Positions 15,162-15,791 of a stretch of DNA of 64,000 bases are shown piece by piece. Origin of the DNA: Chrysophaeum taylorii (taxonomy: Eukaryota > Sar > Pelagophyceae > Pelagomonadales > Pelagomonadaceae); assembly GCA_029834535.1 (NCBI GenBank), contig JAQMWT010000065.1, positions 1-64,000 on the forward strand, given 5' to 3'. Under the pieces are notes generated by a model. It made no database searches, was not told the DNA's origin, and was given only the letters and a program-made list of their open reading frames with translations. Position 1 is the first letter of the stretch. Every line of letters begins with the position of its first letter. Made by a program: the position numbers and the translations under genes.

Positions 15162-15791
15162 ATGCAGATTTTCGTGAAAACGCTGACCGGGAAGACGATT
15201 ACCCTCGACGTCGAGCCGTCGGACACGATCGACAACGTGAAACAGAAGATCCAGGACAAGGAAGGCATTCCGCCGGACCAGCAACGGCTAATTTTCGCGG
15301 GAAAGCAACTCGAAGACGGGCGGACCTTGTCCGACTACAACATCCAGAAGGAGTCGACCCTGCATCTCGTGCTCCGGCTGCGTGGGGGTCACTGCCAGGT
15401 TCCGTGCGGCATCTTCGACGACCCGCGGCTTGTGGCCGAAATCCGCGAGGCGTGCGCTACCGTTCGCAAGGCTATGGTGCAGATCAACGAACTCTCGGCG
15501 AGTCTGACGGCCCAGAACATCAACCAAATCACGCGCTGGGTCAACACCAAGGAGGAACACGCCACGAAGATCATCACGCTGGTCGCTGACTACTGCCTCT
15601 GTCAGCGCGTGAAGCCCGTCGGGGCGGCCGGGTCGCCGTTTACCTCCGAGAAAGACTACCTGGACGCGCTCAAGGCCCATCACTACGTCATGACGGCGGC
15701 GATGAAGGCCAAGCAGACCATTGAGGTGGCGGGCGCGGACGCCCTCGACCACGCCGTCGATGACATGGCCATGATGTACACGCGCGCTTAG
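15162..15791 (+). CDS. sodN: Ubiquitin-nickel superoxide dismutase fusion
   Basis: Residues 1-76 are a complete ubiquitin, starting [15 protein letters not shown] and ending LRLRGG, with conservative changes from the human protein (E16D, E24D, A28Q). The next residue begins a 133-residue NiSOD whose first nine residues are HCQVPCGIF, the nickel hook HCxxPCGx(Y/F). NiSOD binds nickel through the free N-terminal amine and side chain of His1, Cys2 and Cys6, so it needs an exact N-terminus; bacteria obtain it with the SodX protease. Here a deubiquitinase cutting after Gly76 would expose His1. The body ([35 protein letters not shown]) looks like cyanobacterial and marine NiSODs. I chose the ATG at 15162; the frame is open five codons upstream only through a GTG. 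No intron and no targeting peptide are visible, so a cytosolic product is likely. Confidence 0.95.

Follow-up and report, generated by a model that had tools for sequence, protein, structure and literature searches.

Nickel superoxide dismutase (NiSOD) requires a mature protein that begins exactly at His1. In the Streptomyces enzyme the established nickel ligands are the amine and the side chain of His1 together with Cys2 and Cys6, and a NiSOD with a blocked His1 amine does not bind nickel. This hook chemistry would be common to the classic bacterial SodN and to the type of NiSOD described here.

In algae, the hook has been found fused to ubiquitin. Groussman et al. (2015; PMC4460010) reported NiSOD transcripts in 45 diatom species, mostly as UBQ-NiSOD, and gave the hook motif as HCxxPCGxY. 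They marked the same cut site that is considered here, proposed that ubiquitin-specific proteases activate the Ni hook, and stated in general terms that ubiquitin pathways may regulate how much NiSOD is present. Sibbald et al. (2019; PMC6332867) listed the fusion in 116 eukaryotes (B. natans, G. theta and 114 others), almost only marine algae, questioned three of the 116 as possible contaminants, and credited earlier mentions of the fusion. A 2021 review describes the significance of the NiSOD fusion as unknown (PMC8122580). The 2015 and 2019 studies mean that the fusion and its proposed mechanism are already known, which answers the question, raised in an initial annotation of the present DNA, of whether it had been described in other algae.

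The fusion gene and its host

The window (the whole stretch of 64,000 nucleotides that was analyzed) contains an open reading frame of 209 uninterrupted codons and a stop on its forward strand (15162-15791, with the ATG at 15162). The initial annotation had read this frame as a ubiquitin ending LRLRGG followed by HCQVPCGIF, and the open reading frame and Pfam searches showed that reading to be exact to the base (Table 1). PF00240 (ubiquitin) matched residues 3-74 of the fusion protein and PF09055 (Sod_Ni) residues 77-207, the latter with 102 bits against a family cut-off of 25. Gly76 is followed in frame and without a linker by His1 of the Ni hook, which is the arrangement of the algal ubiquitin-NiSOD fusions. 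An ORF listing that permits bacterial starts opens the frame 15 bases further upstream, at a GTG. Given the E-values, the same junction on another organism's contig (L008, below) and the published fusions, we concluded that the junction is not due to chance.

Table 1. Parts of the ubiquitin-NiSOD gene, in window coordinates
Feature	Position	Strand	Evidence
Complete ubiquitin, 76 codons, LRLRGG end	15162..15389	+	PF00240, E 1.1e-32; 73/76 residues as in human
Ni hook HCQVPCGIF, adjoining Gly76; predicted mature N-terminus His1	15390..15416	+	Translation, alignment
NiSOD domain, 133 aa, predicted four-helix bundle	15390..15788	+	PF09055, E 4.5e-29; structure model
Stop codon TAG	15789..15791	+	ORF

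A six-frame search of the 70.8 Mb, 697-contig Chrysophaeum taylorii assembly with the Sod_Ni profile, introns being ignored, returned the window gene on contig C65 as the sole match and no second NiSOD. The chlorophyll-binding family PF00504 gave 84 matches in the genome, a count that includes separate exons of a single gene, and these matches mark the host as phototrophic. Two of these loci, judged by eye from their translations, resemble fucoxanthin-chlorophyll light-harvesting proteins, and one of the two has what we take to be a FAP-type plastid leader. The host is likely a chlorophyll a/c alga, possibly from the stramenopiles, and the gene is probably a nuclear ubiquitin-NiSOD of such an alga. 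An ordinary eukaryotic neighbor, a VPS11 gene, lies at 17627-20086 (+) of the window, and a repeat scan around the fusion gene showed nothing useful.

The genome also holds matches to Fe/Mn SOD (three stretches on two contigs) and to Cu/Zn SOD (five stretches on three contigs), so that the NiSOD is one among several SODs. A 769-residue frame at 49337-51646 (+) of the window, ~34 kb from the NiSOD gene, contains two Cu/Zn SOD domains, together with a thrombospondin type 1 match just under the cut-off and, by eye, a hydrophobic stretch near its end; it is possibly a membrane-bound double Cu/Zn SOD.

The NiSOD domain and its relatives

A search of bacterial and archaeal genomes with six patterns, among them HCQVPCGI, gave 411 matches, and the best 80 were taken as relatives. 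All of the best 80 loci hold HCQVPCGI, and other kinds of NiSOD are therefore under-sampled. They comprise 79 bacterial loci (L009-L087, from Planctomycetota, Verrucomicrobiota, Ferrimonas and others) and L008. The window domain passes the Sod_Ni cut-off and carries the hook HCxxPCG. H1, C2, P5, C6, and G7 are the same in all 21 sequences aligned (the window gene, L008, and 19 bacterial loci), an invariance that is partly built in because the hook was among the search patterns that gathered the loci. At hook position 9 the window gene has Phe, as do seven of the best 80 loci, L008 included; the other 73 have Tyr.

The domain is predicted to adopt the four-helix fold of NiSOD. A structure model built from the 21-sequence alignment has four helices and a mean pLDDT of 91.5; its lowest-confidence part, in this metal-free model, is the hook, with residues 1-3 below 50. 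Foldseek against the PDB placed NiSODs at all of ranks 1-16 (probability 1.00, TM 0.53-0.70 over the query), with weak E-values of 0.007 to 0.11 and no match at E <= 0.001. The top match, 3g4x, is the solved Y9F mutant of NiSOD, which indicates that Phe at position 9 is compatible with the fold. By sequence, no solved NiSOD was found at E 0.001 with the single protein or at E 0.01 with a profile. A looser limit of 10 brought in five NiSOD sequences over the first 26-40 residues; the best of these (E 0.053, over the first 40) was outranked by an unrelated Affimer (E 0.018). The NCBIfam equivalog for classic SodN, TIGR02753, scored 33 bits against a cut-off of 90, and the same cut-off was missed by all eight relatives tested, L008 among them. 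By these scores the window NiSOD belongs to a branch distant from the Streptomyces kind.

L008 (gene at 886-1272 of this locus, on contig PBTU01000001.1) is a second ubiquitin-NiSOD fusion, in which ubiquitin reads through into HCQVPCGIF. It has an apparent intron after MQIFVKT. Both this apparent intron and the presence of ubiquitin point to a eukaryotic contig; its assignment to a Verrucomicrobiales metagenome bin is likely a binning error. A quick tree paired the window gene with L008 (SH-aLRT 96), in an alignment of few columns that includes just these two fusions and in which L008 is long-branched; by path in this same tree, the bacterial rows nearest to the window gene are from Planctomycetota. 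A viral origin was considered and rejected: the NiSOD domain had no relative in viral contigs or phages, and the whole fusion had no match in PHROGs. Six viral-contig loci matched the ubiquitin part, with no NiSOD after it in the stretches translated. A plasmid search returned one bacterial NiSOD, from Ilyobacter, at 36%.

In 77 of the 79 bacterial loci, His1 is immediately preceded by a signal-peptide-like leader, as scored by a simple rule (a hydrophobic stretch, and small residues at both -3 and -1) rather than a trained predictor. In the remaining two, L040 and L062, a hydrophobic leader is present and the small-residue rule failed. The test covered 80 places in the 79 loci, the additional one being a second HC..PC match in L072, which failed the rule. 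The bacterial HCQVPCGI NiSODs are probably exported, as judged from their leaders, and NiSODs with signal peptides are mentioned in print for Roseiconus (PMC12537917).

The initial annotation had proposed that the host replaces SodX with its own ubiquitin hydrolases, and indeed no SodX (TIGR02754) over the cut-off was found in the C. taylorii genome, in a search that ignored introns and was run without a positive control (best match 26.5 against 63.25 bits). This best match, the only one in the alga, is the ORF of a Peptidase_S26 protein; a gene split by introns could have escaped the search. Likewise, none of the 40 searched genomes, which cover 40 of the 79 bacterial loci, had a SodX over the cut-off, again without a positive control and with many of the 40 being metagenome bins that may be incomplete. 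Matches under the cut-off occurred in 19 of the 40, and also in four of 14 control genomes. The best of them, in the Sulfurovum genome of L043, reached 40.2 of the required 63.25 bits over positions 2-88 of 90 in a frame of 100 residues and is possibly a diverged SodX, and the others reached at most 27.2 bits. As an evolutionary history, the replacement of SodX was therefore rejected for the relatives found among the best 80 of 411 matches, in view of their leaders (77/79) and of the SodX searches (0/40). Most likely, to judge by this comparison, the ubiquitin replaced either a signal peptide or another kind of leader, and not a SodX propeptide.

Ubiquitin moiety and other ubiquitin fusions

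The ubiquitin of the fusion differs from human ubiquitin at three of the 76 aligned residues (E16D, E24D, and A28Q). Among 41 ubiquitin-model matches in the genome, 18 places match the model equally well, of which 12 lie on contig C330 (polyubiquitin) and six are single units fused to other sequence; the remainder are weaker, diverged ubiquitin-like sequences. For comparison, copies were chosen by their first 15 residues. The proteins compared (the ubiquitins fused to NiSOD, S27a, TCTP, SKP1 and two further partners, and the polyubiquitin units) are identical. In a DNA comparison with each of the five other fused copies, the one preceding NiSOD shows 17 to 46 differences over 225 nt. All these differences are synonymous and none falls on a second codon position. 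This pattern suggests that the ubiquitin is functional and under strong purifying selection, as would be expected if it is cut off into the cellular pool.

The closest ubiquitin DNA to the NiSOD-fused copy is that of the TCTP fusion (208/225 nt). In a tree of 17 distinct ubiquitin copies these two pair with an ultrafast bootstrap of 98 and an SH-aLRT of 96. Their main DNA match runs from the ATG over 227 bases, which is the ubiquitin frame minus one base, and outside it we found short weak matches only. Because the match is confined to the ubiquitin frame, it seems that one frame was copied onto, or converted by, the other.

The other fusions in the genome deserve a description of their own. 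In L102 (G000:C391:116454-116669, -), ubiquitin is in frame with TCTP, the translationally controlled tumour protein (PF00838, E 2.3e-33). In L104 (G000:C344:656599-656814, +), it is followed in frame by SKP1 (PF01466, E 2.8e-29); there is no ATG directly before this ubiquitin, and the reading frame may begin in an upstream exon. Two further fusions, L103 (G000:C544:63791) and L105 (G000:C398:179259), have partners of 130 and 109 residues, respectively, in which no Pfam family was found at E 0.001. A frame of 864 residues (L107, G000:C686:84222-85085) contains four diverged ubiquitin-like repeats. The ubiquitin-TCTP and ubiquitin-SKP1 fusions are possibly new. TCTP and SKP1 appear in neither of the two tables of Sibbald et al., and the words are absent from its main text (PMC6332867); in the open-licence literature we found no paper on a ubiquitin-TCTP fusion in algae and, judging by the titles of the papers listed, none on a ubiquitin-SKP1 fusion.

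Proposed maturation of the fusion protein and comparison with known systems

We propose that the gene is translated into one polypeptide, that a cellular deubiquitinase would cut it after Gly76, and that the cut would release an ordinary ubiquitin into the pool and leave a NiSOD with a free N-terminal His1, whose amine and side chain could then bind nickel together with Cys2 and Cys6 to give an active enzyme. We put the probability of this reading at roughly 0.88. Because the cut would free His1 for nickel, ubiquitin would act as a removable leader, in the role that SodX has for the classic bacterial NiSOD and that, by the anatomy of their leaders, signal peptidase would have for the nearest bacterial relatives found. 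The genome has two matches to UCH-type deubiquitinases. The deubiquitinase cut put forward in the initial annotation is retained as the best explanation, with an intact junction and a precedent in print, and the cleavage itself stays a prediction.

It is possible, if somewhat doubtful, that ubiquitin mainly helps its partner to fold, to stay soluble, or to be expressed, a role put forward for Ub-S27a and Ub-L40, with the freed His1 as a by-product. In this genome ubiquitin is also fused to S27a, TCTP, SKP1, and two other partners, and none of these five is known to us to require an exact N-terminus. The 2021 review, too, treats the meaning of the NiSOD fusion as unknown (PMC8122580). Such an aid to folding or expression would be compatible with a role as leader. 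Yet the need of NiSOD for an exact His1 and the junction without a linker argue against it as the main function. That the fusion stays uncleaved, with ubiquitin as a permanent domain for the targeting or regulation of NiSOD, is very improbable: we found no supporting point for it, a blocked His1 amine is unable to bind nickel, the LRLRGG-H cut site is intact, and the ubiquitin matches every other copy in the comparison residue for residue. An assembly or gene-reading artefact that joined two separate genes can practically be dismissed, given the single uninterrupted frame, a GC3 that is alike across the junction (0.80 over the ubiquitin part and 0.84 over the 225 nt that follow), and the same junction in L008 and in published transcriptomes.

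Release by a deubiquitinase would have a further consequence, because an N-terminal His is a type-1 destabilizing residue of the eukaryotic N-degron pathway. In a speculative and rather unlikely scenario, UBR1-type ligases would recognize apo-NiSOD by its free hook and send it for degradation, while nickel, by tying up the His1 amine and imidazole, would mask the degron. If so, the ubiquitin leader would couple NiSOD abundance to nickel supply post-translationally. The genome has three UBR-box matches over the family cut-off, one of which closely resembles UBR1 (E 2.3e-18), and the low pLDDT of hook residues 1-3 allows flexibility without showing it. We found no statement in the open-licence literature that links NiSOD to the N-degron pathway or N-end rule. 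That general ubiquitin processing can provide the exact N-terminus required by a metal site is the lesson of the fusion, and it has already been published; what could still matter is the freed His as a nickel-sensitive degron and a common purpose of the ubiquitin leaders of NiSOD, TCTP, and SKP1 in such algae.

Compared with known systems, the window gene is closest to the algal UBQ-NiSODs, which have an N-terminal ubiquitin directly on the Ni hook (PMC4460010, PMC6332867). Its Phe at hook position 9 departs from the published motif HCxxPCGxY (PMC4460010), a comparison with the motif that leaves room for Phe among the published sequences, and against the descriptions in these papers we found no other difference. 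The bacterial HCQVPCGI NiSODs share the hook and the NiSOD domain, with 43-54% identity among the 19 aligned, but have a signal-peptide-like leader (77 of 79 loci among the best 80 of 411 matches) where the window gene has ubiquitin. The classic SodN/SodX system of Streptomyces and cyanobacteria has the four-helix fold that is predicted for the window NiSOD; it differs in that the window NiSOD falls under the sodN equivalog cut-off, has ubiquitin as its leader, and sits in a genome without a SodX over the cut-off. In Ub-S27a and Ub-L40 ubiquitin is a removable leader, as it would be in Ub-NiSOD; unlike in these ribosomal fusions, the partner in Ub-NiSOD is a metalloenzyme whose active site would include the new N-terminus.
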